DNA from: Nonomuraea rubra
Lineage (GTDB): Bacteria; Actinomycetota; Actinomycetes; Streptosporangiales; Streptosporangiaceae
DNA length: 64,000 nt
Assembly: GCF_014207985.1 (NCBI RefSeq)
Contig: NZ_JACHMI010000001.1
Coordinates: 3,269,001 to 3,333,000 of the forward strand
Direction of reading: 5' to 3'
This document shows, piece after piece, positions 11,566-59,816 of this stretch. Position 1 is the stretch's first letter. Each line of letters opens with the position of its first letter. A program made the translations under genes and the position numbers. The notes below the pieces were generated by a model. The model had not been told where the DNA came from and did not search any database. It saw only the letters and a program-made list of their open reading frames with translations.

Positions 11566-11961
11566 TCAGTACCAACCGTGGGATTGGAAGTGGCCCCACG
11601 CGCGACACGGAGTGCCGTATCGCTGCTTGATGTAGCCGAGGCCCCACTTGATCTGCGTGCGCGGGTTGGTCCGCCAGTCACGTCCTGACGAGGCCATCTT
11701 GTGGCCGGGGAGCGCCTGCGGGATGCCGTAGGCGCCCGAGCCGTTGCCGGCGCGGTGGTTCCAGCCGCTCTCGCGGTGCCACAGCTTCACCAGGCACCTG
11801 AACTGGGCGGCGTCCCAGCCGCGCGAGGCCACCATGGCCTTGGCGATGGCCTTGTTCCTGCCGCTGGTCTGGGAGCTCTGCGCCTGTGCGGCCGGGGCGC
11901 CGCCCGCCGCCACCAGGGTGGCGGTCAGGACCAGGACGCCGGTACGGCGGAGCATGGGCAT
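11566..11961 (-). CDS. Secreted lysozyme-like/lytic transglycosylase protein 2
   Basis: 131 residues from ATG with AGGGA six bases upstream. A signal peptide (about 1-28, ending APAAQAQS) is followed directly by the same domain as its downstream paralogue: LWHRESGWNHRA with the likely catalytic glutamate, GSGAYGIPQALPGHKM, and the C-terminal pattern ended by GWY. It differs by a shorter linker. Both proteins should act on peptidoglycan outside the membrane. Tandem duplication is evident from matching spacing and C-termini (SHNWY versus SHGWY). The two genes have separate leaders and a terminator between them, so they are probably regulated independently. Confidence 0.85.
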   Translation of the reverse strand: MPMLRRTGVLVLTATLVAAGGAPAAQAQSSQTSGRNKAIAKAMVASRGWDAAQFRCLVKLWHRESGWNHRAGNGSGAYGIPQALPGHKMASSGRDWRTNPRTQIKWGLGYIKQRYGTPCRAWGHFQSHGWY

Positions 11962-12136
11962 GCGGATTCCCTTTCGAGGGGGTTCGTGGACCGCGCCACC
12001 CTCCCCGATGGGCTCCCTTTACAGCGAATTGACCATGGAAATGTAGATCGTCAGTAAAGATCTCGATATATACCTTTTCATGCGTGTTTGTCGGAAAAAT
12101 GAGGACTGCGTCACAATTTCGGCCTGACTCGTTCTG

Positions 12137-12142
12137 TAGGGT
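12137..12142 (+). promoter_or_regulatory. Candidate -10 element for a leaderless peroxidase transcript
   Basis: TAGGGT followed by 6 bases and then the ATG. This matches the actinobacterial TANNNT -10 pattern at the spacing expected for transcription starting on the start codon. No clear -35 is visible. Confidence 0.35.
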
Positions 12143-12148
12143 CGAACC

Positions 12149-12634
12149 ATGAGCCTCAGCGACATCCCGCTTCGCACTCTTACGGACGAGCCGACCACGC
12201 TGGCAGAGCTGGCCGCGGGCAGGCCCGCCCTCATCGTCAACGTGGCCTCGAGATGCGGGCTCACCCCGCAGTACATCGGCCTGGTGAAACTTCAGGAGGA
12301 CTACGGCCCGCGCGGCTTCACCGTGATCGGCATGCCGTGCAACCAGTTCGCCGGTCAGGAGCCCGGCACCGCCAAGGAGATCCAGCACTTCTGCTCCACC
12401 ACCTACGGCGTGGACTTCCCGCTGCTGGAGAAGTCCGAGGTGAACGGCCCCGGCCGCCACCCACTGTACGCCGAGCTCACCCGGACGCCCGACGAGCAGG
12501 GAGAGGCGGGCGACGTCCAGTGGAACTTCGAGAAGTTCCTCGTGGACGGCCAGGGCCGCGTCGTGGCCCGCTTCCGCCCCCGCACCGCCCCGGAGGACCC
12601 GGCGATCACCTCGGCGATCGAGCAGCTGCTCTAG
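12149..12634 (+). CDS. Glutathione peroxidase-family thiol peroxidase
   Basis: 161 residues, the normal length. The peroxidatic cysteine C36 lies in VASRCGLTPQ, where animal enzymes have selenocysteine. The rest of the tetrad is present in CNQFAGQEPG (glutamine) and VQWNFEKFLV (tryptophan and asparagine). In bacteria such enzymes usually reduce hydroperoxides with thioredoxin or mycothiol-linked systems, and actinomycetes make mycothiol rather than glutathione. No Shine-Dalgarno is visible; TAGGGT at 12137-12142 lies 6 bases before the ATG, so the message may be leaderless. Its stop overlaps the converging hydrolase gene by 4 bases. Confidence 0.88.
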   Translation: MSLSDIPLRTLTDEPTTLAELAAGRPALIVNVASRCGLTPQYIGLVKLQEDYGPRGFTVIGMPCNQFAGQEPGTAKEIQHFCSTTYGVDFPLLEKSEVNGPGRHPLYAELTRTPDEQGEAGDVQWNFEKFLVDGQGRVVARFRPRTAPEDPAITSAIEQLL

Positions 12635-13521
12635 CCGTTCGCCGCCGACGTGTGCGCGAGGACGGCCCGCGCCAGCTCCTCGTGCACCTCAGGCGGCAGC
12701 GTGTGCCCCATGCCCTCGATCATCAGCAGCCGCGCGCCCGGGATCCGGTCGGCGATGATCGCGCCGTGGCCGGGCTTGGCCGGCTCGTGGGTGCCCTCGA
12801 CGACCAGGGTCGGCGCCTTGACCCGGTGCAGCACGCCCACCGGCTCGAAGTCGGGGCCGGCCGCCGCCGCCAGCCGGTGGTTGACCACGGCGTCCAGGTC
12901 GCGGGCCCGGTCGTAGACGCGCTCCTGCAGGCGGCGGGCCGCGTCCTCGTCGAACGGCAGCGCCGTGCCGTGCAGCACCCGCTGCTCGGCGATCATCGAC
13001 TCGATCCGCTCGCGCCGGCCCGCGGGCGGCGGGGCCGTGATGAGCTCGCGGTAGAAGGCCACGAACTCCGGCGCGGGCTCCGGCAGGCTGCCCTCCGGCT
13101 GCGGCTCGCCCATCAGCGCCCGCATGATCACCATGCCCTCGCGCTCGCCCAGCGGCGAGGAGCCGATTACGGTGAGCGTACGCACCCGCTCGGGCCGCTC
13201 CACCGCGATCAGCTGGCCGAGCAGGCCGCCCGCCGAATGGCAGACCAGGTGGGCGCTCTCCAGGCCGTGCGCGTCCATCACCCGCAGGACGTCGTCCTTG
13301 ATGTCCTCCCAGGTGTACGGCTCCTGCTCGAAGTCCACGGTGCGGGAGCGGCCCGTGTCGCGGTGGTCGTACCGGATCACCCGCCGCCCGCCGGCGGTCA
13401 GCCTGCCCACGAACTCGTCCGGCCACAGGATCCCCTGCGACATCGAACCCATGACCAGCAGGATCGGCTCGTCGGCGGTGTCGCCGAACTCTTCACTCCA
13501 GATGTCGTTTTGCATGCTCAA
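12631..13521 (-). CDS. Alpha/beta hydrolase (RdmC-like esterase group)
   Basis: 296 residues. The fold is shown by the oxyanion region VMGSMSQG, the RYDHRDTGRS segment typical of the RdmC/aclacinomycin methylesterase group, nucleophile S96 in VCHSAGG, and GMGHTLPPEV carrying the catalytic histidine. The TTG start overlaps the stop of the upstream LuxR gene (TTGA) with AGGA six bases before; an ATG at 13515 is an alternative. It is therefore coupled to the LAL regulator and probably co-expressed. A paralogue is at 36025-36933. The natural substrate is unknown; such enzymes hydrolyse esters or lactones. Confidence 0.85.
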   Translation of the reverse strand: MSMQNDIWSEEFGDTADEPILLVMGSMSQGILWPDEFVGRLTAGGRRVIRYDHRDTGRSRTVDFEQEPYTWEDIKDDVLRVMDAHGLESAHLVCHSAGGLLGQLIAVERPERVRTLTVIGSSPLGEREGMVIMRALMGEPQPEGSLPEPAPEFVAFYRELITAPPPAGRRERIESMIAEQRVLHGTALPFDEDAARRLQERVYDRARDLDAVVNHRLAAAAGPDFEPVGVLHRVKAPTLVVEGTHEPAKPGHGAIIADRIPGARLLMIEGMGHTLPPEVHEELARAVLAHTSAANG

Positions 13522-48689: not shown

Positions 48690-50165
48690 GTGACTGAACG
48701 GTGGAGCCGTGATCAGGTGCTCGCCCTCGCCCCCGACGCGTCGTCCCAGAAGGCGGCGCAGGGGGTGGCGGCTGCCGGAAAGTGGTCGCTGCGCGGCACG
48801 ACGGGCACGGTGCTGTACGGCGAGTGCAAGGGCAGCGGCGCCCGCCCCTACCTGGCGGCCGTCGACCTGAGCGAGCCCGCCTACCGGTGCAGCTGCCCGA
48901 GCAGGAAGTTCCCGTGCAAGCACGCGCTCGGGCTGCTGCTCCTGTGGTCCGCCGACGGGGTGCCCGCCCAGGAGGCGGCGCCGCAGTGGGTCACGGAGTG
49001 GCTGGACGGCCGCGCCGAACGCGCCGCCAAGTCAGCGGCCCGCCTGGACGCGGCCCGCACCCGCCTCGCCACCACCCCGGGCACCGCCCCCTCGGCCCGG
49101 GACGCTGGACCCTCGGCCCCGGGTGCCTCGGCTGCGGTTCCGGGCGCGGGCCCCTCCGCCCCCGGCACCGCCCCCGGCACCGTGCCCGGCACCGTGCCCG
49201 GCGCCGGTGGCCGGGTGGAGTCCGTACGGCATCAGCGGGTCGCGGCCGGGCTGGCCGAGCTGGAGCGGTGGCTGGCCGACCAGGTGCGGCAGGGCCTGGC
49301 GGGCGCCCAGGAACACGACTGGGACGGCCTGGCCAAGCGGCTCATCGACGCCCAGGCCCCCGGCGTGGCCGGCGTGGTGTCCCGGCTGGCCAGAGTCCGC
49401 GCCGAGGAGGGCTGGCCGGGCCGGCTCCTGGAGGAGTACGCCCTGGTCAACCTGCTCGCCATCGCCTACCGCCGCCGCGCCGCCCTGCCGGATCCCCTGG
49501 CGCAGACCGTCCTGATCCGCACCGGCTTCCCCATCACGAGGGAAGAGGTCCTCGCCGGCCCCCCGGTGCGCGATCACTGGGACGTGCTGGGCAGGCGCGA
49601 CGAGACCCAGGACCGGCTGACCGCCCGCCGCGTCTGGCTCCGCGGCCGCCGCACCGGCCGCCCGGCCCTCATCCTGTCGTTCGCCCCGCAGGGCCAGCCC
49701 CTGGACGCCTCCCTGGTCACGGGCACCACCATCGACGCCGACCTCACCTTCTACCCGGGTGCCGCCCCCCTCCGCGCCCTCGTCGCCCTCCGCCACCCCA
49801 CCACCCCACCACCGGCCGCACCGCAGGCCGTGCCACCCGAGGCGCCACCCGAGGCGCCACCCGAGGCGCCACCCGAGGCGCCACCCGAGGCGCCGCCCGG
49901 GGTGTCGCCCGGTGAGGCGCTCGACGAGGTGGCGTGGGTGCTGGGCGAGGACCCGTGGACCGAGTCGTGGCCGCTGGTGCTCACCGGCGTGGTCCCCGGC
50001 CGCACCACCCTCGGCGGCCTCCCGCTCCACCCCCGCGCCCACGACCCGTGGCGCCTGATCGCCGTCTCCGGCGGCCGCCCGCTCACCGTGGCCGCCGAAT
50101 GGACACCTCAGGGCCTGCGCCCCCTGACCACCTGGGACGACGAAGGAACGGCGGTGATCCTGTGA
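48690..50165 (+). CDS. SWIM zinc-finger protein, first gene of a five-gene operon
   Basis: 491 residues from GTG (VTERWSRDQVLALAPD is the usual family N-terminus); the frame is open to 48660. The SWIM finger is C67-x-C69-x6-C76-x-H78 in YRCSCPSRKFPCKH, a zinc motif proposed to bind DNA or protein. A Pro/Ala/Gly low-complexity linker (about 130-180) separates it from a helical region. A later acidic linker has five PEAP-type units from a 12-bp repeat (49839-49898). Its stop overlaps the next gene's GTG (GTGA). The operon continues with DUF5691, MoxR, DUF5682 and VWA genes, all overlapping by 4 bases. Confidence 0.87.
   Translation: MTERWSRDQVLALAPDASSQKAAQGVAAAGKWSLRGTTGTVLYGECKGSGARPYLAAVDLSEPAYRCSCPSRKFPCKHALGLLLLWSADGVPAQEAAPQWVTEWLDGRAERAAKSAARLDAARTRLATTPGTAPSARDAGPSAPGASAAVPGAGPSAPGTAPGTVPGTVPGAGGRVESVRHQRVAAGLAELERWLADQVRQGLAGAQEHDWDGLAKRLIDAQAPGVAGVVSRLARVRAEEGWPGRLLEEYALVNLLAIAYRRRAALPDPLAQTVLIRTGFPITREEVLAGPPVRDHWDVLGRRDETQDRLTARRVWLRGRRTGRPALILSFAPQGQPLDASLVTGTTIDADLTFYPGAAPLRALVALRHPTTPPPAAPQAVPPEAPPEAPPEAPPEAPPEAPPGVSPGEALDEVAWVLGEDPWTESWPLVLTGVVPGRTTLGGLPLHPRAHDPWRLIAVSGGRPLTVAAEWTPQGLRPLTTWDDEGTAVIL
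49839..49898 (+). repeat. Five 12-bp repeats in the SWIM gene
   Basis: GAGGCGCCACCC repeated five times, the last with one change, encoding E-A-P-P units in a flexible linker. Copy-number change would keep the frame. Confidence 0.85.
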
Positions 50166-51502
50166 CCGGCTGGGACGAGCTGGCCTCGACGGCGCTCGTG
50201 GGCACCGACCGCAGACCGTACGGAGGCGACCTGCTCGAAGCGGCGGCCGTCGAGGTGGCGCGGCGGCGCGCGGGCGGCCGGGTGAACGAGCCGGGCGGCG
50301 TGGAGCCCGCGCCCGGCGAGGAACGCGAGGCGGTCGGCAGGCGGGCGGCCGAGCGGCTGGGCAGGCTGCTCGGCGGCGAGCACGAGAGGCTGATCCCCGA
50401 ATGGCTGGCCGCGGCCGCCGCCACCGGCCGCAGGGTCCCCGCGTACGTGCTGCCCGAGCTGCTGGAGCGCGGCCGCCGCGACCGTTCGATCAGGGTGCAC
50501 CTCGGCGTGCTGGCCGGGCAGCGCGGCCGCTGGCTGGCCGGGCAGAACCCGGCCTGGGCGTACCTGCTGGAGGAGCCCACGGGCGAGACGTGGGAGCTGG
50601 GCGGCGCCGCCGACCGGCGCGCCCACCTGAGCGCGCTCAGGGCGGCCGATCCCGGCCAGGCCAGGCGGCTGCTGGAGAGCACGTGGGAGCGGGAGACGCC
50701 GGACGACCGGGCGGGGTTCGTGGAGGTGCTGGCCGACGGGCTGAGCATGGCCGACGAGCCGTTCCTGGAGCAGGCGCTGGACGACCGCCGCAGGGAGGTG
50801 CGGCAGGCCGCCGCCAACCTCCTGACCCGCCTGCCCGGCTCGCGCCTGTCGCAGCGCATGGCCGGGCGGGTACGCGCCCGCGTGACGATCAGCGGCGACA
50901 CGATCACCGTCGAGGCCCCGGAAGCCTGCGACAGGGACATGGAGCGCGACGGCGTGCGCCCGAAGCCGCCCCGCGGCATCGGCGAGCGCGCCTGGTGGCT
51001 GCAGCAGATCGTCTCCCGCGCCCCGCTGTCCTTCTGGGGCAGCCCGAACGTCCTGCTGGGGATGAAGATCCCCGACTGGGACGCCGAGGTGAAGGCCGCC
51101 TGGGTACGCGCCGCGGTGCTGCAGCGCGACCCCGAGTGGGCGCGGGCGATGTTCGGCTGGGACCCGATCGCCGACCTGCTCGAATGCCTGCCGCCCGAGG
51201 AGCAGCAGGAGCTGGCCGCCCGGTTCGTACGCGGCCACGACCTCGACAGCCAGTTGATCATGGTGCTGGGCGGCGTGTCGTCCCACTGGCGCGAGGGCCT
51301 GGCGACGGCCGTGCTCAGCAAGATCGTGAAGGTGAACACCACGCAGCCCTGGAACCTCGGCGAGCTGGTCAAGCTGGCGGGCGAGCACATCGACCCCGCC
51401 CTGTTCGAGCTGGCCGAGGACTACTCGCCGGCCGAGCCCGTCCAGAAGGTCGCCGCCCTGCTGCGTTTCCGCGCTGACATGTACAAGGAGCTCTCCCGAT
51501 GA
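50162..51502 (+). CDS. DUF5691 protein
   Basis: 446 residues from GTG overlapping the previous stop by 4 bases. It starts GWDELASTALVGTDRRP, the usual N-terminus of this family, and is mostly helical. The middle part contains HEAT-like helices (DDRRREVRQAAANLLTRLPG), which suggest a scaffold. No catalytic motif is seen. Its stop overlaps the MoxR gene start (ATGA). Function unknown; strict coupling to a MoxR ATPase and a VWA protein suggests a structural or substrate-recruiting subunit of that machine. Confidence 0.8.
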   Translation: MTGWDELASTALVGTDRRPYGGDLLEAAAVEVARRRAGGRVNEPGGVEPAPGEEREAVGRRAAERLGRLLGGEHERLIPEWLAAAAATGRRVPAYVLPELLERGRRDRSIRVHLGVLAGQRGRWLAGQNPAWAYLLEEPTGETWELGGAADRRAHLSALRAADPGQARRLLESTWERETPDDRAGFVEVLADGLSMADEPFLEQALDDRRREVRQAAANLLTRLPGSRLSQRMAGRVRARVTISGDTITVEAPEACDRDMERDGVRPKPPRGIGERAWWLQQIVSRAPLSFWGSPNVLLGMKIPDWDAEVKAAWVRAAVLQRDPEWARAMFGWDPIADLLECLPPEEQQELAARFVRGHDLDSQLIMVLGGVSSHWREGLATAVLSKIVKVNTTQPWNLGELVKLAGEHIDPALFELAEDYSPAEPVQKVAALLRFRADMYKELSR

Positions 51503-52563
51503 CCGTTCTGCGCCCGCACGCGGAAGACCAGTACGCCGAGGAGCTGGCCTTCCTCGCCAAGGACGACGACCGGCCCAGGCCGCCGGGCTGGAAGCTGTCG
51601 CCGTGGGCGGTGACCACGTACGTCCTGGGCGACGGCGACCGCATCACCCCCAAGTACGTCGGCGCCCGCCGCATCGTGGAGGTGGCCGTGGCGACGCTGG
51701 CCACCGACCGCGCGCTGCTGCTGCTCGGCGTGCCCGGCACCGCGAAGACGTGGCTGTCGGAGCACCTGGCCGCCGCGATCAGCGGCGACTCGACGCTGCT
51801 CGTGCAGGGCACCGCGGGCACCGCCGAGGAGGCCGTCCGGTACGGCTGGAACTACGCCCGGCTGCTGGCCGAGGGCCCGTCGATGGAGGCGCTGACCCCG
51901 TCGCCGGTCATGCGCGCGATGGCGGAGGGCCGGGTGGCCCGGGTCGAGGAGCTCACCCGCATGCCGTCCGACGTGCAGGACGCCCTGATCACCGTGCTGT
52001 CGGAGAAGACGCTGCCGATTCCCGAGCTGAACCGCGAGGTGCAGGCGCAGCGCGGCTTCAACGTGATCGCCACGGCCAACGACCGCGACCGGGGCGTGAA
52101 CGAGCTGTCCAGCGCGCTGCGCCGCCGCTTCAACACCGTCGTGCTGCCGGTCCCCGCCACCGCCGAGGAGGAGGTGGACATCGTCGCCCGCCGCGTCGCC
52201 CAGCTCGGCCGTTCCCTGGAGCTGCCGGAGACGGCGACGGGGCCGGCGGAGATCAGGCGGGTGGTGACGGTGTTCAGGGAGCTGCGCACGGGGGTCACGG
52301 AGGACGGCCGCACCAAGGTCAAGTCGCCCAGCGGCACCCTGTCCACGGCCGAGGCCATCTCGGTCCTGACCAGCGGCATCGCCCTGGCCGCCCACTTCGG
52401 CGACGGGGTGCTGCGCCCGGCGGACGTGGCCGCCGGGATCGTCGGCGCGGTGGTGCAGGAGCCGGTGTCGGACCGGGTGGTGTGGCGCGAGTACCTGGAG
52501 ACCGTGGTCCGCGAGCGCTCCGACTGGCGCGACTTCTACCGCGCCTGCCGCGAGGTCTCATGA
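51499..52563 (+). CDS. MoxR-type AAA+ ATPase
   Basis: 354 residues. Walker A is GVPGTAKT (77-84). The Walker B position reads VARVEELTR, with Glu where Asp is usual, followed by PSDVQDALITVLSEK as in MoxR proteins. Sensor 1 is ATANDRD and the arginine finger region SSALRRRF. MoxR ATPases work as chaperones with VWA-domain proteins to insert metals or remodel complexes. The VWA gene is two genes downstream in the same operon. Overlaps its neighbours on both sides by 4 bases, so the five proteins are probably made in fixed ratio. Confidence 0.92.
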   Translation: MTVLRPHAEDQYAEELAFLAKDDDRPRPPGWKLSPWAVTTYVLGDGDRITPKYVGARRIVEVAVATLATDRALLLLGVPGTAKTWLSEHLAAAISGDSTLLVQGTAGTAEEAVRYGWNYARLLAEGPSMEALTPSPVMRAMAEGRVARVEELTRMPSDVQDALITVLSEKTLPIPELNREVQAQRGFNVIATANDRDRGVNELSSALRRRFNTVVLPVPATAEEEVDIVARRVAQLGRSLELPETATGPAEIRRVVTVFRELRTGVTEDGRTKVKSPSGTLSTAEAISVLTSGIALAAHFGDGVLRPADVAAGIVGAVVQEPVSDRVVWREYLETVVRERSDWRDFYRACREVS

Positions 52564-54896
52564 GCGGCCCCCCGACCGGCGGCGACCGGGAGAGCGGCGT
52601 CCCGGCCGGCGGAGAGCGGTTGAGCACCGCCCCGGCTGGCGGTGGCCGGGTGAGCGGCGTGTCCGTCCTCGGGGTGCGGCATCACGGGCCCGGCTCGGCG
52701 CGTGCCGTGCGGCGGGAGCTCGAACGGCTGCGCCCCGACGCGATCCTCATCGAGGGCCCGCCCGAGGCGGACGCCCTGGTCACGCTCGCGCCCGGCCTGG
52801 AGCCGCCGGTCGCGCTGCTCGCCCACGTGCCGGCCGAGCCGTCGCGGGCCGCGTTCTGGCCGTTCGCGACGTTCTCTCCCGAGTGGCAGGCGATCCTGTA
52901 CGGCACGTCCGCGGGCATCCCGGTCCGCTTCTGCGACCTCCCCGCCGCCCACTCCCTGGCCGGCGACCCCGACGGCCCCGACGAGCCCGAGCCCGCGCAG
53001 GTGGACCCGATCGGCTCCCTGGCCGCCGCGGCCGGCTACGACGACCCGGAACGCTGGTGGGAGGACGTCGTCGAGCACCGGGACGGCGACACGCCGTTCG
53101 AGGTGATCGCCGAGGCCATGGCCGCCGTACGCGAGGGTCACGAGCCGGGCGGGCGGGAGGCCAGGCGGGAGGCGTACATGCGCAAGACCCTCCGCGCGGC
53201 CGTCAAGCAGGGCTTCGGCCGGATCGCGGTGATCTGCGGCGCCTGGCACGTGCCCGCGCTGACCGGCCCGATGCCGTCCGCCGCCGCGGACAACGCCGTC
53301 CTGCGCGGCCTGCCGAAGGTGAAGGCGGAGCTGACGTGGGTGCCGTGGACGTACGGGCGGCTGGCCTCCTGGAGCGGCTACGGCGCGGGGATCACCTCGC
53401 CCGGCTGGTACCACCACCTGTTCGACGCGCCCGACCGGCCCGTGGAGCGGTGGCTGGCGCAGGCGGCGGGGGTGCTCCGCGACGAGGGACTGGCGGTGTC
53501 GTCGGCGCACGTCATCGAGTCCGTACGCCTCGCGCAGAGCCTGGCCGTCCTGCGCGGCAGGCCGCTGGCCGGGCTCGGCGAGGTCACCGAGGCGGCCAGG
53601 GCCGTGCTGTGCGAGGGCGACGACCTGGCCGTGGAGCTGATCCAGCGGCGCATGGTCGTCGGCGACCGGCTCGGCCACGTCTCCGACGGCACGCCGATGG
53701 TGCCGCTGCAACGCGACCTGCGCGAGCAGCAGCGGCGGCTCAAGCTCAAGCCCGAGGCGCTCGACCGGGAGCTCGACCTCGACCTGCGCAAGCCCCTCGA
53801 CCTCGACCGCAGCCACCTGCTGCACCGGCTGGCGCTGCTCGGGGTGGGCTGGGGCACGCCGGGGCAGGCGCGCGGCAAGGGCACGTTCAGGGAGACGTGG
53901 ACGCTGCGGTGGCGCCCCGAGCACGACCTCGCGCTCATCGAGCACGCCGCGCTCGGCACGACCGTGGCCGGGGCGGCGGCGCAGCGGGCCGCGGACCTGG
54001 CGGCGGAGCCGTCGGCGGCGCTGGCCGATCTGACGTCGCTGGTCGAGCGGTGCCTGCTGGCGGACCTGCCGGAGGCGCTGCCGGACGTGCTGGCGGCGCT
54101 GTCGGCCAAGGCGGCGCTGGACACGGACGTCACCCGCCTGATGGCGGCGCTGCCCGCGATGGTGCGCGCCCACCGGTACGGCGACGTGCGCGGCACCTCG
54201 GCGGAGGGGCTGGCGGTGATCGTGCGGTCGATGCTGGAGCGGATCCGCGTCGGGCTGCCGGTGGCGGTGACGGGCCTGGACGACGAGGCGGCGGCGGACC
54301 TGCTCAAGCACGTGGACGCGGTGCACTCGGCCGTCGCCCTCCTGCCCGACACCACTCCAGACGGCGCTCCAGACGGGGCTTCGGACGGGGCTTCGGACGG
54401 GGCTTCGGGCGGGGCTGCGGAGGGGGCCGGGCCCCGCGGGCGGTGGCTGAGCACGTTGCGGGGCATCAGCGACCGGCAGGACCTGCACGGCCTCATCGAG
54501 GGCCGCCTGACCAGGATCCTGCTGGACTCCGGCGAGCTGGACGACGCCGGTGACCGCATGTCCAGGGCCATGTCGCGGGGCCAGGCGCCGGCCCGGGCGG
54601 CGGCCTGGGTCGAGGGCTTCCTGGCTGGTGACGGGCTGCTGCTGGTGCACGACCCGCGCCTGCTGGCCCTGGTGGACGGCTGGCTGTCCGGGCTGCCTGG
54701 CGACCAGTTCACGGACGTGCTGCCGCTGCTGCGCCGCACGTTCGGCGGGTTCGCCGCGCCGGAGCGCAGGGCGATCGGCGAGCGGCTGCGCTCGGCCGGC
54801 CGCGACGAGGGGGAAGGGGAGCAGGACGTGGACGAGCGCCGCGCCGCGGCGGCCGTCGCCACCGTCCTGTCGATCATCGGGAAGGCGAGCGGATGA
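52560..54896 (+). CDS. DUF5682 protein
   Basis: 778 residues from ATG overlapping the MoxR stop. A short Gly-rich leader is followed by VLGVRHHGPGSARAVRRELE and AILIEGPPEADALV. This N-terminal pattern of paired histidines and an acidic strand end recalls TraB/ChaN-like hydrolase folds, but that link is tentative. Later ICGAWHVPAL supplies another conserved histidine. The C-terminal half is helical. A low-complexity DGAS linker comes from a 12-bp repeat (54360-54419). It is the largest protein of the operon and, if the fold guess is right, the likely enzyme. Ends overlapping the VWA gene by 4 bases. Confidence 0.8.
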   Translation: MSGPPTGGDRESGVPAGGERLSTAPAGGGRVSGVSVLGVRHHGPGSARAVRRELERLRPDAILIEGPPEADALVTLAPGLEPPVALLAHVPAEPSRAAFWPFATFSPEWQAILYGTSAGIPVRFCDLPAAHSLAGDPDGPDEPEPAQVDPIGSLAAAAGYDDPERWWEDVVEHRDGDTPFEVIAEAMAAVREGHEPGGREARREAYMRKTLRAAVKQGFGRIAVICGAWHVPALTGPMPSAAADNAVLRGLPKVKAELTWVPWTYGRLASWSGYGAGITSPGWYHHLFDAPDRPVERWLAQAAGVLRDEGLAVSSAHVIESVRLAQSLAVLRGRPLAGLGEVTEAARAVLCEGDDLAVELIQRRMVVGDRLGHVSDGTPMVPLQRDLREQQRRLKLKPEALDRELDLDLRKPLDLDRSHLLHRLALLGVGWGTPGQARGKGTFRETWTLRWRPEHDLALIEHAALGTTVAGAAAQRAADLAAEPSAALADLTSLVERCLLADLPEALPDVLAALSAKAALDTDVTRLMAALPAMVRAHRYGDVRGTSAEGLAVIVRSMLERIRVGLPVAVTGLDDEAAADLLKHVDAVHSAVALLPDTTPDGAPDGASDGASDGASGGAAEGAGPRGRWLSTLRGISDRQDLHGLIEGRLTRILLDSGELDDAGDRMSRAMSRGQAPARAAAWVEGFLAGDGLLLVHDPRLLALVDGWLSGLPGDQFTDVLPLLRRTFGGFAAPERRAIGERLRSAGRDEGEGEQDVDERRAAAAVATVLSIIGKASG
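54360..54419 (+). repeat. Five 12-bp repeats in the DUF5682 gene
   Basis: GACGGGGCTTCG occurs three times exactly, with one diverged unit on each side, encoding D-G-A-S units in frame. Same unit length and copy number as the repeat in the SWIM gene of this operon. Confidence 0.8.
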
Positions 54897-56062
54897 GCGC
54901 GGCGGACGAGCGGATGCGGCGGTGGCGGCTGGTGCTCGGGGGCGGGCAGGCCGACGGCACCGGGTTCGGGCTGGAAGGCGTGGACGCGCGGATGGACGCC
55001 GCCCTGGCCGCCGTCTACGACCAGGGCGGCCAGGGCGGCGACGACGGCGGCGACCGCAGGCAGGGCGGCCTCGGGGCGTCGGCGCCCCGGGTGGCCAGGT
55101 GGCTGGGCGACATCCGGACGTACTTCCCGTCCACGGTCGTCCAGGTCATGCAGAAGGACGCGATCGAGAAGCTGAACCTCACCAGGCTCCTCCTGGAGCC
55201 CGAGATGCTTGAGGCGGTGGAGCCGGACGTGCACCTGGCCGGCACCCTGCTCGCGCTCAACAAGGTGATGCCCGACCAGGCCCGCGAGTCGGCCAGGGCG
55301 CTGGTGCGGCGGGTGGTGGAGGAGCTGGAGCGCAGGCTGGCGCAGAAGACCAGGGCCGCCGTGTCCGGGGCGCTGGACCGCTCGGCCAGGACGCACCGGC
55401 CCAGGCGGGTGGCCGACATCGACTGGGACCGCACGATCAGGGCGAACCTGAAGAACTACCTGCCCGACAGGAACACCGTGGTCCCGTCCCGGCTGGTGGG
55501 CTACGCGCGCAGGCAGCGGTCGGTGCAGCGGGAGGTGGTGCTGTGCGTCGACCAGAGCGGGTCGATGGCGGCCTCGGTGGTGTATTCGAGCGTGTTCGGG
55601 GCGGTCCTGGCGTCGATGCGGTCGCTCAGGACGTCGCTCGTCGTGTTCGACACGGCGGTGGTGGATCTCACCGATCAGCTGCACGACCCGGTGGAGGTGC
55701 TGTTCGGCACCCAGCTCGGCGGCGGCACCGACATCAACCGCGCCGTCGCCTACTGCCAGGGCCTCATCACCCGGCCGGCGAACTCGATCTTCATCCTGAT
55801 CAGTGACCTCTACGAGGGCGGGATCAGGCAGGAGATGCTGCGCAGGGTGGCGGCGATGACACAGGCGGGGGTGCAGGTGATCGTGCTGCTCGCGCTGTCC
55901 GACGAGGGAGCGCCGTTCTACGACCACGAGAACGCCGCCGCGCTGGCGGCGATGGGCGTGCCCGCGTTCGCGTGCACGCCCGACGCCTTCCCCGGCCTGA
56001 TGGCCGCCGCGATCGAGCGCCGCGACATCGCCCAGTGGGCCGAGCGGCACCAGACGACCTGA
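54893..56062 (+). CDS. VWA-domain protein, last gene of the SWIM/MoxR operon
   Basis: 389 residues. A helical N-terminal half with a Gly/Asp-rich linker (near residues 44-55) precedes a von Willebrand A domain. The MIDAS metal site is complete: D220-Q-S-G-S in CVDQSGSMAAS, threonine in GGGTDINRA, and aspartate in LISDLYEGG. It should bind Mg or Mn and a ligand carboxylate, probably in DUF5682 or a target, under remodelling by the MoxR ATPase. No signal peptide, so the system is cytoplasmic. The converging MFS gene ends 10 bases after its stop. Confidence 0.9.
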   Translation: MSAADERMRRWRLVLGGGQADGTGFGLEGVDARMDAALAAVYDQGGQGGDDGGDRRQGGLGASAPRVARWLGDIRTYFPSTVVQVMQKDAIEKLNLTRLLLEPEMLEAVEPDVHLAGTLLALNKVMPDQARESARALVRRVVEELERRLAQKTRAAVSGALDRSARTHRPRRVADIDWDRTIRANLKNYLPDRNTVVPSRLVGYARRQRSVQREVVLCVDQSGSMAASVVYSSVFGAVLASMRSLRTSLVVFDTAVVDLTDQLHDPVEVLFGTQLGGGTDINRAVAYCQGLITRPANSIFILISDLYEGGIRQEMLRRVAAMTQAGVQVIVLLALSDEGAPFYDHENAAALAAMGVPAFACTPDAFPGLMAAAIERRDIAQWAERHQTT

Positions 56063-56071
56063 CACCCGGGG

Positions 56072-57523
56072 TCACGCGCCGTGCGGCTGCTGCTCCGGGC
56101 GGGCGCGGCGCGGCAGCAGGTACGACAGGGCGAACGTCAGCAGCAGCAGCCCGACCTCGACCCACACGGTGACCTCCATCGACGCCCCGAACTCCCACTG
56201 ATCGGCGAGCAGGCCGAAGAAGAGCGTGCCGAGCACGGCCGTGCCGAGGGCGCCGCCGAGCTGCTGCACCCCGGTCAGCGTGCCGGAGGCGGAGCCGGTC
56301 TCGTGCGGCTCGACCCCGGCCAGCACGATGTCGAAGAACGGCGCCATGGTCAGCCCCATCCCGACGCCGACCAGGGCCAGCCCCGGAGCGAGCTGCCAGG
56401 CGCCGACGTCGATCCCGGCCAGGTGGATGGTCAGGGCGAGGACCGCCGCCCCGGCCGCCATCACGACGGTGCCGATCTGCATGAGCCCGCGGCCCAGCTT
56501 CTCCTGCAGCCCGGCCATCGCCAGGGCGAAGCCGGCGACGCCGCCGACGGCCTGCGGGAGCGCGGTCAGTCCCGCCTGGAGCGGCGTGAACCCGAGGCCG
56601 GCCTGGGTGTAGAAGCTGAACACGACGCCGAAGCCGGTCATGCCGGAGAAGAAGGCCAGGCCGGCGACGAGGCCGCCGACGAAGCCCCGCTTGCGGAACA
56701 GGGAGGGCGTGACCAGCGGATCCCGGCCGGACCTGGCGCGGCGCGACTCGTACCGGCCGAAGAGGACGAACATGAGGGCGGAGGCCGCCATCGAGACGAA
56801 CGTCCAGGCCGGCCAGCCCGCCTCGCGGCCCTGGATGAGTGGGAAGATCAGCAGGAACGCGGCGATCGAGACGAGTGCGACGCCTGGCAGGTCGAGCCGC
56901 GTGGCGTTGGAGAGGCGGAACTCGGGCAGGAAGCGCAGCGCGGCCAGGACGGCGGCCAGCCCGATGGGCAGGTTGATCAGGAAGATCATGCGCCAGCCGG
57001 TGCCGAAGAAGTCGGCGTCCACCAGCCAGCCCGCCAGCACGGGCCCGCCGACGGAGGAGATGGTCATGACCGGCCCGAACATGCCGAACGCCTTGCCCAT
57101 CTCCTGTGGCGGGAACATCTCCCTGATCAGCCCCAGCCCCTGCGGCAGCATCACGGCCCCGAACAGGCCCTGCACCGCCCGGCCCGCGACGAGCATCTCG
57201 GGGCTGACGGCGATGCCGCACAGGAGTGAGGCGACGGTGAAGCCGGCGGCGCCGATCACGAACATGCGCTTCTTGCCGAACAGGTCGCCGAGCCGCCCGC
57301 CGGTGATCAGGCCGACGGCCATGGCCAGGGTGTAGCTCGCGCCGAGCCACTGCACGAGGCTCTCGGAGCCGCCGAGCTCCTCCTGGATCGTGGGGGCGGC
57401 GATCGCGGTGACGAGCGCGTCGAGCAGGTCCATGACCTCGGCGGCCAGGATCACGAACAGGGCGACCCAGCGCCAGCGGTAGGGCGGGGCCTCGGTGGTC
57501 GCACCGGAGGCGGTGACTGTCAT
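56072..57523 (-). CDS. MFS drug/metabolite exporter (DHA2, 14-helix type)
   Basis: 483 residues from ATG with AAGGAG six bases upstream. About 14 membrane helices. Antiporter motifs are GRLGDLFGKKRMFVIG (motif A, loop 2-3), the acidic residue in the first helix (AAEVMDLLDALVTAIAAPTI cut to LLDALVTAIAAPTI), and GSASGTLTGVQQLGGALG late in the protein. This is the EmrB/QacA group, proton-driven exporters of toxic compounds or antibiotics. It diverges from a TetR gene with palindromic operators between them, the classic repressor/efflux arrangement. Confidence 0.92.
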   Translation of the reverse strand: MTVTASGATTEAPPYRWRWVALFVILAAEVMDLLDALVTAIAAPTIQEELGGSESLVQWLGASYTLAMAVGLITGGRLGDLFGKKRMFVIGAAGFTVASLLCGIAVSPEMLVAGRAVQGLFGAVMLPQGLGLIREMFPPQEMGKAFGMFGPVMTISSVGGPVLAGWLVDADFFGTGWRMIFLINLPIGLAAVLAALRFLPEFRLSNATRLDLPGVALVSIAAFLLIFPLIQGREAGWPAWTFVSMAASALMFVLFGRYESRRARSGRDPLVTPSLFRKRGFVGGLVAGLAFFSGMTGFGVVFSFYTQAGLGFTPLQAGLTALPQAVGGVAGFALAMAGLQEKLGRGLMQIGTVVMAAGAAVLALTIHLAGIDVGAWQLAPGLALVGVGMGLTMAPFFDIVLAGVEPHETGSASGTLTGVQQLGGALGTAVLGTLFFGLLADQWEFGASMEVTVWVEVGLLLLTFALSYLLPRRARPEQQPHGA

Positions 57524-57553
57524 CACAAGCTCCTTCAAACGGTGTTCTAGCGG

Positions 57554-57568
57554 ACGAACGGCGTTCGT
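57554..57568. promoter_or_regulatory. TetR operator 1 (perfect palindrome)
   Basis: ACGAAC-GGC-GTTCGT, perfect 6-base arms, 31 bases upstream of the exporter ATG. A half site AACACTGTT follows at about 57574-57582. Confidence 0.7.
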
Positions 57569-57588
57569 CAACGAACACTGTTTTAGTG

Positions 57589-57603
57589 ACGAACAGCGTT
57601 CGT
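57589..57603. promoter_or_regulatory. TetR operator 2 (perfect palindrome)
   Basis: ACGAAC-AGC-GTTCGT, the same arms as operator 1, 35 bases further on and 19 bases before the TetR ATG. An additional half site ACAGTGTTCG occurs at 57611-57620. Confidence 0.7.
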
Positions 57604-57621
57604 GTCAAGTACAGTGTTCGC

Positions 57622-58356
57622 ATGAGCAAGGACTCCCGTGACGTGCCCGCGCCCCCGTGGCGCAAGCCGCGCCGCCCGGCGCAGGTCAAGCGGCAGCTCA
57701 ACCAGGAGCTGATCGTCGAGACCGGGCTGGCCATCCTCGACGCCGAGGGCTTCGACGCGCTGAGCATGAGACGGGTGGCCCAGGAGCTCGAAACCGGCCC
57801 CGCCTCGCTGTACGCGCACGTGTCCGGCAAGGAGGAGCTGCTCGAACTCATCTACGACCGCGTGTGCGCCGAGATCCGGCTGCCGGAGCCCGACCCGTCC
57901 CGCTGGAAGGAGCAGCTGCGGGAGTACGCCCTGGAGGTGCACCGCGTGTTCGGCGAGCACGCCGACGTGGCCAGGGCCGCCCTGGCGAGCATCCCGACGG
58001 GGGAGCACTCCCTGCGTACGGGCGAGTTCACGTACGGGCTGCTGATCGAGGCGGGCATGTCGCCGAGGGAGGCGTCCCTGGCGATGGACCGGCTGACGCT
58101 CTACCTCGTCGGCGACGCCTACGAGGCGTCGGTGCACTGGGCGCGGATGCGCGCGGCCGGGATGCGGGACCCGCGGGAGTACTTCGAGGCGTTCATCAGG
58201 CAGATCACCACCTACTACCGGGCGCTGCCGCGGGAACGGTTCCCGCACCTGTACGACCACGTGGACGACCTGACCGCCGACGGCGGTGAAGCCCGCTTCG
58301 AGTACGGGCTGGAGCTGCTGCTCGACGGCATCGAGGCCCGCATGCCCAGGACCTGA
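57622..58356 (+). CDS. TetR-family repressor of the divergent exporter
   Basis: 244 residues from ATG; a frame to 57586 is open but would run through operator 2. Helix-turn-helix about residues 28-75 (LNQELIVETGLAILDAEG, SMRRVAQELETGPASLYAHV) and a TetR_C-type ligand domain with DRLTLYLVGDAYEASV. Two identical palindromes and further half sites in the 98-base divergent gap point to autoregulation and control of the DHA2 exporter. The inducer is probably an exported compound. Confidence 0.9.
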   Translation: MSKDSRDVPAPPWRKPRRPAQVKRQLNQELIVETGLAILDAEGFDALSMRRVAQELETGPASLYAHVSGKEELLELIYDRVCAEIRLPEPDPSRWKEQLREYALEVHRVFGEHADVARAALASIPTGEHSLRTGEFTYGLLIEAGMSPREASLAMDRLTLYLVGDAYEASVHWARMRAAGMRDPREYFEAFIRQITTYYRALPRERFPHLYDHVDDLTADGGEARFEYGLELLLDGIEARMPRT

Positions 58357-58433
58357 CGCGCCCGGCCTTAGGGCGAATTGCCTAGGCCCTGCGCCCGATG
58401 TGCCGACCAGGGCCTTCACCATAGTTTGCCGGT

Positions 58434-59816
58434 ATGACAACGACTGTTGAAAGCCCTGTGGGGACCCCGGCGGGCGTGCTCTCGCCGCAGTACCGCGCGC
58501 TCAGCATCGGGCTGGTCGCGCTGGTCACGTTGCAGGCCTTCGAGGCCATGGCGGTGGCCACGGCCATGCCCGTGGTGGCCCGCGAGCTCGACGGCATGTC
58601 CCTGTACAACCTGGCCTTCAGCGCCACCCTCGCGGCCAGCGTGATCGCGACGGTGCTGGGCGGACGGTGGAGCGACGTGCGGGGGCCGCTGCGGCCCATC
58701 GGCGCCGGCGTGGTGACGTTCGTGGCGGGGCTGCTGCTGGCCGGGCTCGCGCCGACGATGGAGCTGTTCGTCGCGGGCCGGTTCGTGCAGGGGCTCGGGA
58801 CCGGATTGACGCAGGTGGCGCTGTACGTGCTGGTGGCCAGGGCGTACCCGCCTGAGATGCATCCCCGGGTGTTCGCCGCGTTCTCGGCGGCCTGGGTGGT
58901 GCCCTCCATGATCGGCCCGGCCATCGCCGGGTTCATCGCGGAGAGCCTGGACTGGCGGTGGATCTTCCTCGGTGTCACGGTGATCGTCGTCCCGTCGGCG
59001 CTGCTGCTCTGGCGCGGGATGTCCGGCAGGGCCGTGCACGAGGCCGTCGCCGCACCCGCCCCCGGCCTCGGCCGCAAGCTCGTCTACGCCACCCTGACCG
59101 CCGTCGCCGCCGCCCTCATCCAGTACGGCAGCGCGCTCAAGCTCGCCGGCCTGCCCCTGCTCGCCGCCGGCATCGTCCTGCTGGCCGTGTCGCTGCCCAA
59201 GCTGCTGCTGCCGGGCTCGCTGCGGGCCGCCCGCGGCCTGCCGACCGGGCCGCTGCTGCGCGGGCTGGCGTTCGGCTCGTACACGGCGGCCGAGGTGCTC
59301 ATCCCCCTCATGCTCAAGTACGAGCGCGGCCTGAGCGTCACCGCGGCCGGCATCGTGCTCACCATCGGAGCCCTCGGCTGGTCCACCGGCTCCTGGCTCA
59401 AGGGCCGCGGCCTGATCGGCAACATGGCCGCCCTGCGCGGCGGCGCGTTGCTGATCGCGGCCGGCATCTCGCTGGTGACGCTCGTCCTCATCGACCCGCT
59501 GCCGCTCGTTCTCGCGCACGTGGGCATGGCCGCCGTCGGCCTCGGCATCGGCGTGCTGCACCCGACCGTGTCGGTGCTGGTACTGGAGATGTCGAAGGAG
59601 GGCGAGGAGGGCAACAACAGCGCGGCCGTGGGCGTGGGCGAGTCGGTGTTCACCGTGGTGGCCGTGGCGGTCAGCGGCGCCCTGTTCACCGCCGCCGCGC
59701 AGAACTACGCGGTCGGTCTCGTCTTCACCATCGGGCTCGCGCTTCTCGGCGCCGTGCTGGCCCCACGTTTCGTTCACCCCCGGGCAGCGGGCACTATGGA
59801 GGGAACCGCGTCATAA
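58434..59816 (+). CDS. MFS transporter
   Basis: 460 residues with about 12-14 hydrophobic helices. Motif A is present in modified form (GGRWSDVRGPLRPIGAG). The N-terminal helix TLQAFEAMAVATAMPVVARELDG and GRFVQGLGTGLTQVALYVLV match multidrug-type MFS proteins. No Shine-Dalgarno is seen before the ATG; CATAGT eight bases upstream could be a -10 for a leaderless transcript. The enolase-superfamily gene follows 10 bases later and may be co-transcribed, which would link transport to that protein. Confidence 0.88.
   Translation: MTTTVESPVGTPAGVLSPQYRALSIGLVALVTLQAFEAMAVATAMPVVARELDGMSLYNLAFSATLAASVIATVLGGRWSDVRGPLRPIGAGVVTFVAGLLLAGLAPTMELFVAGRFVQGLGTGLTQVALYVLVARAYPPEMHPRVFAAFSAAWVVPSMIGPAIAGFIAESLDWRWIFLGVTVIVVPSALLLWRGMSGRAVHEAVAAPAPGLGRKLVYATLTAVAAALIQYGSALKLAGLPLLAAGIVLLAVSLPKLLLPGSLRAARGLPTGPLLRGLAFGSYTAAEVLIPLMLKYERGLSVTAAGIVLTIGALGWSTGSWLKGRGLIGNMAALRGGALLIAAGISLVTLVLIDPLPLVLAHVGMAAVGLGIGVLHPTVSVLVLEMSKEGEEGNNSAAVGVGESVFTVVAVAVSGALFTAAAQNYAVGLVFTIGLALLGAVLAPRFVHPRAAGTMEGTAS

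Follow-up and report, generated by a model that had tools for sequence, protein, structure and literature searches.

A MoxR-VWA operon of Nonomuraea rubra that may place a TIKI-like hydrolase under an AAA+ motor

What might a SWIM zinc-finger protein, a DUF5691 protein, a MoxR AAA+ ATPase, a DUF5682 protein and a VWA protein do together, when their genes follow one another in this order on the plus strand at positions 48690-56062 of a 64,000-nucleotide stretch (hereafter the window) of the 12.9 Mb genome of Nonomuraea rubra? Among named proteins, the nearest matches are from N. rubra (95-96%). The four junctions between these genes are 4-base overlaps, GTGA, ATGA, ATGA and ATGA in gene order. 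The coordinates, the junction sequences and a Pfam scan, in which all five proteins score above their own cut-offs (27.3 bits, E 2.6e-6, against 19.6 for the SWIM domain PF04434), agree with the layout given by a first-pass annotation of the window. The answer that we favour, tentatively and with slightly less than even confidence, is that the five proteins form a single MoxR-VWA machine of the YehL/YehP type, powered by ATP and with DUF5682, as a TIKI-like hydrolase, at its working end. Its role would most likely be protein maturation or quality control, and housekeeping, for which the evidence is indirect, is more likely than defence. Three candidate residues of DUF5682 (H41, E65 and H230) together with the defined gene set make this operon of no assigned function directly testable, and if the hydrolase reading is true, it would pair an AAA+ motor with a fold without known motor use.

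Conservation and variants of the gene set

A gene-neighbourhood search across genomes, proposed by the first-pass annotation, was carried out by scanning species genomes with the window DUF5682, and the best 80 of at least 506 relatives were kept. All five genes are collinear in 53 of the 80 relatives (54 of 81 loci with the window), and in 17 of the 80 all five are present with DUF5691-SWIM transcribed away from MoxR-DUF5682-VWA, Streptomyces and Streptantibioticus being among those inspected. At least one gene is missing in 10 of the 81 loci, 8 of which are short contigs or break off on the side where the missing gene would lie. One relative (L086) has no detectable SWIM gene despite available upstream sequence, and another (L048) begins near a contig end and has disturbed frames. 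Since the set is conserved, the five genes probably belong to one system. The first-pass annotation had named a lack of such conservation as a finding that would refute its reading, and the search shows the opposite. The suggestion that the five proteins are made together in a set ratio does not carry over to the relatives, as the 17 divergent loci hold the genes as two units. Four-base overlaps are common but not universal: the junctions, in gene order, overlap in 40 of 57, 51 of 78, 45 of 81 and 51 of 76 cases (80 relatives and the window), where fused or divergent pairs were counted as non-overlapping and minus-strand SWIM-DUF5691 pairs were left unscored.

In a sample of 296 Actinomycetota genomes, DUF5682 was found in 21 and DUF5691 above cut-off in 18, all 18 being within the 21 (hypergeometric p 5e-26, a value that ignores relatedness). 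In three genomes without DUF5682 (G049, G153 and G187), DUF5691 matches reach E <= 0.001 but stay below the cut-off. The set thus has a scattered distribution across the phylum, yet its members travel together. Outside the phylum, the plasmid collection holds the full five-gene set in Deinococcus, Rhizobium and Hymenobacter, in the last of which SWIM is fused to DUF5691.

A sister arrangement is found in Escherichia coli K-12, in which yehI, yehL, yehM, yehP and yehQ encode DUF4132, MoxR, DUF5682, VWA and SWIM proteins, respectively. The shared MoxR, DUF5682 and VWA genes are in the same order, with identities of 42% (over 352 aa, E 6e-84), 29% (over 476 columns) and 37% (over 370 aa), and a SWIM protein is also present. 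It differs from the window operon in that the SWIM gene is last and not first, that DUF4132 (yehI) is present with yehK between, and that DUF5691 is absent. On comparing the window SWIM protein with YehQ, no significant alignment was obtained. At least 80% of yehLMPQ is present in 5162 of 5426 complete E. coli genomes, which makes it near-core, yet YehL has no function in the open-access literature searched. The yeh-type set also occurs on Allorhizobium and Iodobacter plasmids, and the window genome itself has a copy (L087, 5650-15815) with WGR-DUF4132, MoxR, DUF5682, VWA and a SWIM protein that Pfam scores below cut-off. A third copy in the same genome (L088, 7892-14563) consists of a protein that matches no Pfam family, VWA, MoxR and DUF5682, the first of these standing where other copies have SWIM. 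In a fourth class DUF5682 and VWA are one polypeptide (L119-L121 and L128); L120 also has an upstream stretch of 1668 aa with no Pfam match above cut-off and a downstream open reading frame (ORF) that is CxC..CxH-like by eye and has no Pfam match.

Among 111 loci, SWIM and DUF5691 are fused in 8 ORFs and DUF5682 and VWA in 6. Of three fusion ORFs scanned with Pfam, L120 and L063 have both domains above cut-off, and the Hymenobacter one (L138) has DUF5691 above and SWIM below. These natural fusions sort the five proteins into two modules and a motor. MoxR and VWA adjoin DUF5682 in 19 of 20 regions examined (derived from 35 DUF5682 matches, split genes included), and in the remaining region (L135) the contig stops before MoxR. 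It may be noted that in the Methylosinus plasmid copy (L139, 11130-12355) the VWA matches run across three overlapping, unannotated ORFs, owing to either a broken gene or a sequencing error. The arrangements across the operon classes thus mark MoxR-DUF5682-VWA as the core around which the other genes are exchanged.

The N-terminal domain of DUF5682

DUF5682 had been pointed out as a possible enzyme and as a target for structure prediction, and a predicted fold with candidate residues now lends support to that suggestion. The AlphaFold2 model of the whole protein has a predicted local distance difference test (pLDDT) score of 86.1 and a predicted template-modelling score of 0.81. Searches with this model by Foldseek and VIA-align matched the C-terminal repeat alone, and the N-terminal domain was therefore folded by itself. 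It is predicted with a pLDDT of 90, and its structure matches are uniformly of TIKI type, the superfamily of TraB/Tiki, erythromycin esterases, ChaN and VvRRSP. For residue conservation we aligned 35 DUF5682 sequences from the four operon classes, with a lowest pairwise identity of 18%. A total of 31 residues are invariant in all 35, of which 27 lie within residues 31-375, and they include H41, H42, E65, S106, E108, D126, E172, R191, R203, E204, G227 and H230. Two GxxH motifs are present, G38-x-x-H41 (G in 32 of 35) and G227-x-x-H230 (35 of 35). Tiki/TraB proteins carry a pair of GxxH motifs. Also, the predicted order of a His after strand 1, a Glu after strand 2 and a His after a later strand is like that of the TIKI superfamily. 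A Fusobacterium member outside the 35 keeps the first His and has Phe at the H42 position. The likeness may have been overlooked because the stretch matched by Pfam begins at residue 50, beyond the first His.

Several results weigh against this assignment. Plain Foldseek with the N-terminal domain gave weak values and no fold support, profiles of the whole protein and of the domain gave none against the PDB sequences, and hhalign found no sequence-level similarity of DUF5682 to the erythromycin-esterase profile. Of the 2His/2Glu order, two His and one Glu are matched, and the other Glu is absent from its place in VvRRSP (V39); going by conservation, E108, E172 or E204 could supply it. The long C-terminal repeat and the encoding with an AAA+ motor also set DUF5682 apart from the superfamily. 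TraB was too rare for a profile (2 of 246 phylum genomes and 0 of 41 relatives). Because of the weak Foldseek values, the Glu missing from its VvRRSP place and the helical repeat that makes up the C-terminal half, we considered that DUF5682 might be a mere scaffold, with a TIKI resemblance that reflects a broadly shared alpha/beta build or an enzyme that has lost its activity, while MoxR-VWA assembles some other complex. That H41, E65 and H230 never vary across the 35 sequences of four operon classes, and that the list of structures is uniformly of TIKI type, make this quite improbable. We do not assign DUF5682 as a TIKI member; its N-terminal domain, as modelled, looks like TIKI and may work like one, which would make the protein a putative hydrolase. 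As a separate observation, the window genome has eight erythromycin-esterase family matches (for example L153).

The motor and its proposed mode of action

The window MoxR is closer to YehL than to RavA, for which no significant match was found (E 0.19), these being the only two E. coli MoxR proteins compared, and its neighbourhood is that of yehLMP. On this sequence evidence it belongs with the YehL subfamily, one of seven named in the MoxR family. Walker A and the catalytic Glu of Walker B are both present, so that the residues for AAA+ competence are in place, with Glu as the first acidic residue. The usual Walker B combines an Asp that serves Mg with a Glu for catalysis (PMC9976466), so the catalytic Glu is kept here. 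The first-pass annotation had read Walker B as EE rather than DE. The reading is correct, but the pattern is not unusual, being found in 109 of 111 related MoxR ORFs, with DE in none; of the other two, the Fusobacterium one reads VEE and misses the last letter of the pattern, and the L048 ORF is incomplete. EE was accordingly rejected as the mark of a dead or unusual ATPase.

The VWA protein is related to YehP and gave a weak match to ViaA (24%, E 5e-4). All elements of its metal-ion-dependent adhesion site (MIDAS), DxSxS, T and D, were located as had been claimed, and the SWIM motif is likewise complete. The DxSxS pattern occurs in 98 of 109 related VWA ORFs, the misses including flanking-residue variants and partial ORFs, and CxC-x(n)-CxH occurs in 89 of 98 related SWIM ORFs. 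The description of DUF5691 as HEAT-like has no support above threshold, since Pfam HEAT_EZ (16.7 bits against 27) and HEAT (14.9 against 23.5) are both below cut-off.

The earlier pairing of the MoxR ATPase with a VWA protein is supported, and the same pair is found in NorQ-NorD, CoxD-CoxE and RavA-ViaA, which differ in having no DUF5682 or SWIM-DUF5691 partner in the literature searched. In NorQD, a VWA finger is reported to sit in the MoxR pore, with ATP driving the twist of a linker (PMC13036017), and MIDAS changes abolish client activity while leaving MoxR binding intact (PMC9976466). By analogy with such systems, the MoxR ring (the ring form being expected from the family) would pull or twist the VWA protein, whose MIDAS site would hold a client. 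DUF5682, bound or fused to VWA, would act on this client, with H41, E65 and H230 hydrolysing a peptide or ester bond and the helical repeat serving as a scaffold. The SWIM-DUF5691 pair would select the client, as a recognition module that can be exchanged, the yeh branch having a DUF4132 protein instead of DUF5691. Of this scheme, the gene set, the fusions, the motifs and the residue conservation are observed and the fold is predicted, while the complex, the hydrolysis, the selection of clients and the role are inferred. The TIKI fold is not known to work with an AAA+ motor. A bolder version, which we regard as plainly unlikely, is a new kind of ATP-dependent proteolysis in several phyla, where the MoxR ring takes the place of a Clp, Lon or FtsH motor and hands VWA-held clients to a TIKI-fold protease (DUF5682/YehM), near-core in E. 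coli, and exchangeable SWIM-based adaptors set the specificity.

The likeness to NorQD and CoxDE also allows for a cofactor-insertion chaperone, in which a metalloenzyme is remodelled by MoxR-VWA, and DUF5682 handles a cofactor or metal without hydrolysis, much as ChaN uses this fold to bind haem. We hold this as rather unlikely, as no recurrent metalloenzyme gene was found beside the operon in seven annotated records (by product names) and the invariant His and Glu are those of the esterases and proteases of the TIKI fold.

Neighbouring genes, conflict systems and other features

Of the two genes just upstream of the operon, one is retained in none of the 80 relatives and the other in 1. The three genes downstream (56072-59816) look by eye like two major facilitator superfamily transporters with a TetR regulator between them, and in gene order they stay with the operon in 14, 14 and 21 of the 80. 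The unkept upstream neighbours, along with the patchy occurrence of DUF5682 in the phylum, would suit mobility at least, or a conflict or anti-phage system of the MoxR-vWA ternary type, to which the operon had earlier been linked and which it resembles in having MoxR, vWA and a third protein. Also in favour are a bpMoxR profile score of 26.5 bits on MoxR (cut-off 27), restriction genes adjoining the Iodobacter plasmid copy, a PDDEXK nuclease gene adjoining the Hymenobacter one, and a partial DUF5682 match (30.8%, 41% of the query) at 11694-12686 of MT835988.1, a 14-kb faecal record labelled bacteriophage that may be mislabelled bacterial DNA. Such ternary systems are defined by a VMAP, iSTAND, FtsH or beta-propeller component (PMC7159879). 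Going by Pfam names, none of these partners was recognised in the five proteins, which have no FtsH, no propeller and no STAND domain above cut-off; nor was there a VMAP-named match, a negative that depends on Pfam having a VMAP model. PADLOC gave no convincing match, the best being IetA (E 0.0028) over a 31-residue stretch around Walker A. With the near-core E. coli counterpart and the retained downstream neighbours also against it, we judge the conflict reading very improbable and the link unsupported. A viral origin was likewise rejected: 42 matches to two peptide patterns in viral contigs include no relative, leaving only the partial match in MT835988.1.

The open-access literature searched has no mention of DUF5682, only genome reports (by title) for yehL/M/P/Q together, and no paper that joins GxxH with Tiki/TraB terms. 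The passages found for MoxR with VWA and SWIM do not concern this gene set, and among the matches listed there was none for DUF5691 or for 'SWIM zinc finger' with MoxR/von Willebrand. In a butanol-tolerance study, yehQ appears in strain-table passages without a mechanism.

Table 1. Features of the five-gene operon in window coordinates.
Feature	Position	Strand	Remark
SWIM zinc-finger protein, 491 aa, GTG start	48690..50165	+	Likely recognition part; single ORF with DUF5691 in 8/111 loci
SWIM finger CxC-x6-CxH, C67-C69-C76-H78	48888-48923	+	Motif present
DUF5691 protein, 446 aa, GTG start; SWIM-protein partner	50162..51502	+	PF18944 3e-139
MoxR AAA+ ATPase, YehL-like, 354 aa	51499..52563	+	Pfam AAA_5 8.8e-39
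MoxR Walker A (GVPGTAKT, residues 77-84)	51727-51750	+	Motif present
MoxR Walker B (R148-V-E-E)	51940-51957	+	Motif present
DUF5682 protein, 778 aa; N-terminal TIKI-like alpha/beta domain (predicted) and C-terminal helical repeat	52560..54896	+	PF18934 5.3e-270; AlphaFold2 model
TIKI-like domain of DUF5682, residues 31-243; EreC matches extend to 283	52650..53288	+	Predicted structure, residue conservation
DUF5682 GVRH41H42	52671-52691	+	
DUF5682 E65	52752-52754	+	
DUF5682 SPE108W	52875-52886	+	
DUF5682 GAWH230	53238-53249	+	
DUF5682 small helical bundle, residues 292-358, AAA+ lid subdomain-like	53433..53633	+	
DUF5682 HEAT/armadillo-like helical repeat, residues 425-750	53832..54809	+	Probable scaffold
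VWA (CoxE-type) protein, 389 aa	54893..56062	+	Pfam VWA_CoxE 1e-57
VWA MIDAS	DxSxS in 55547-55567, T in 55718-55732, D in 55799-55819	+	D220-S222-S224 / T279 / D305

Low-complexity repeats were seen by eye at two places, PPEA units in the SWIM protein (window 49800-49920) and DGAS-like units in DUF5682 (window 54350-54440), each probably a flexible linker.
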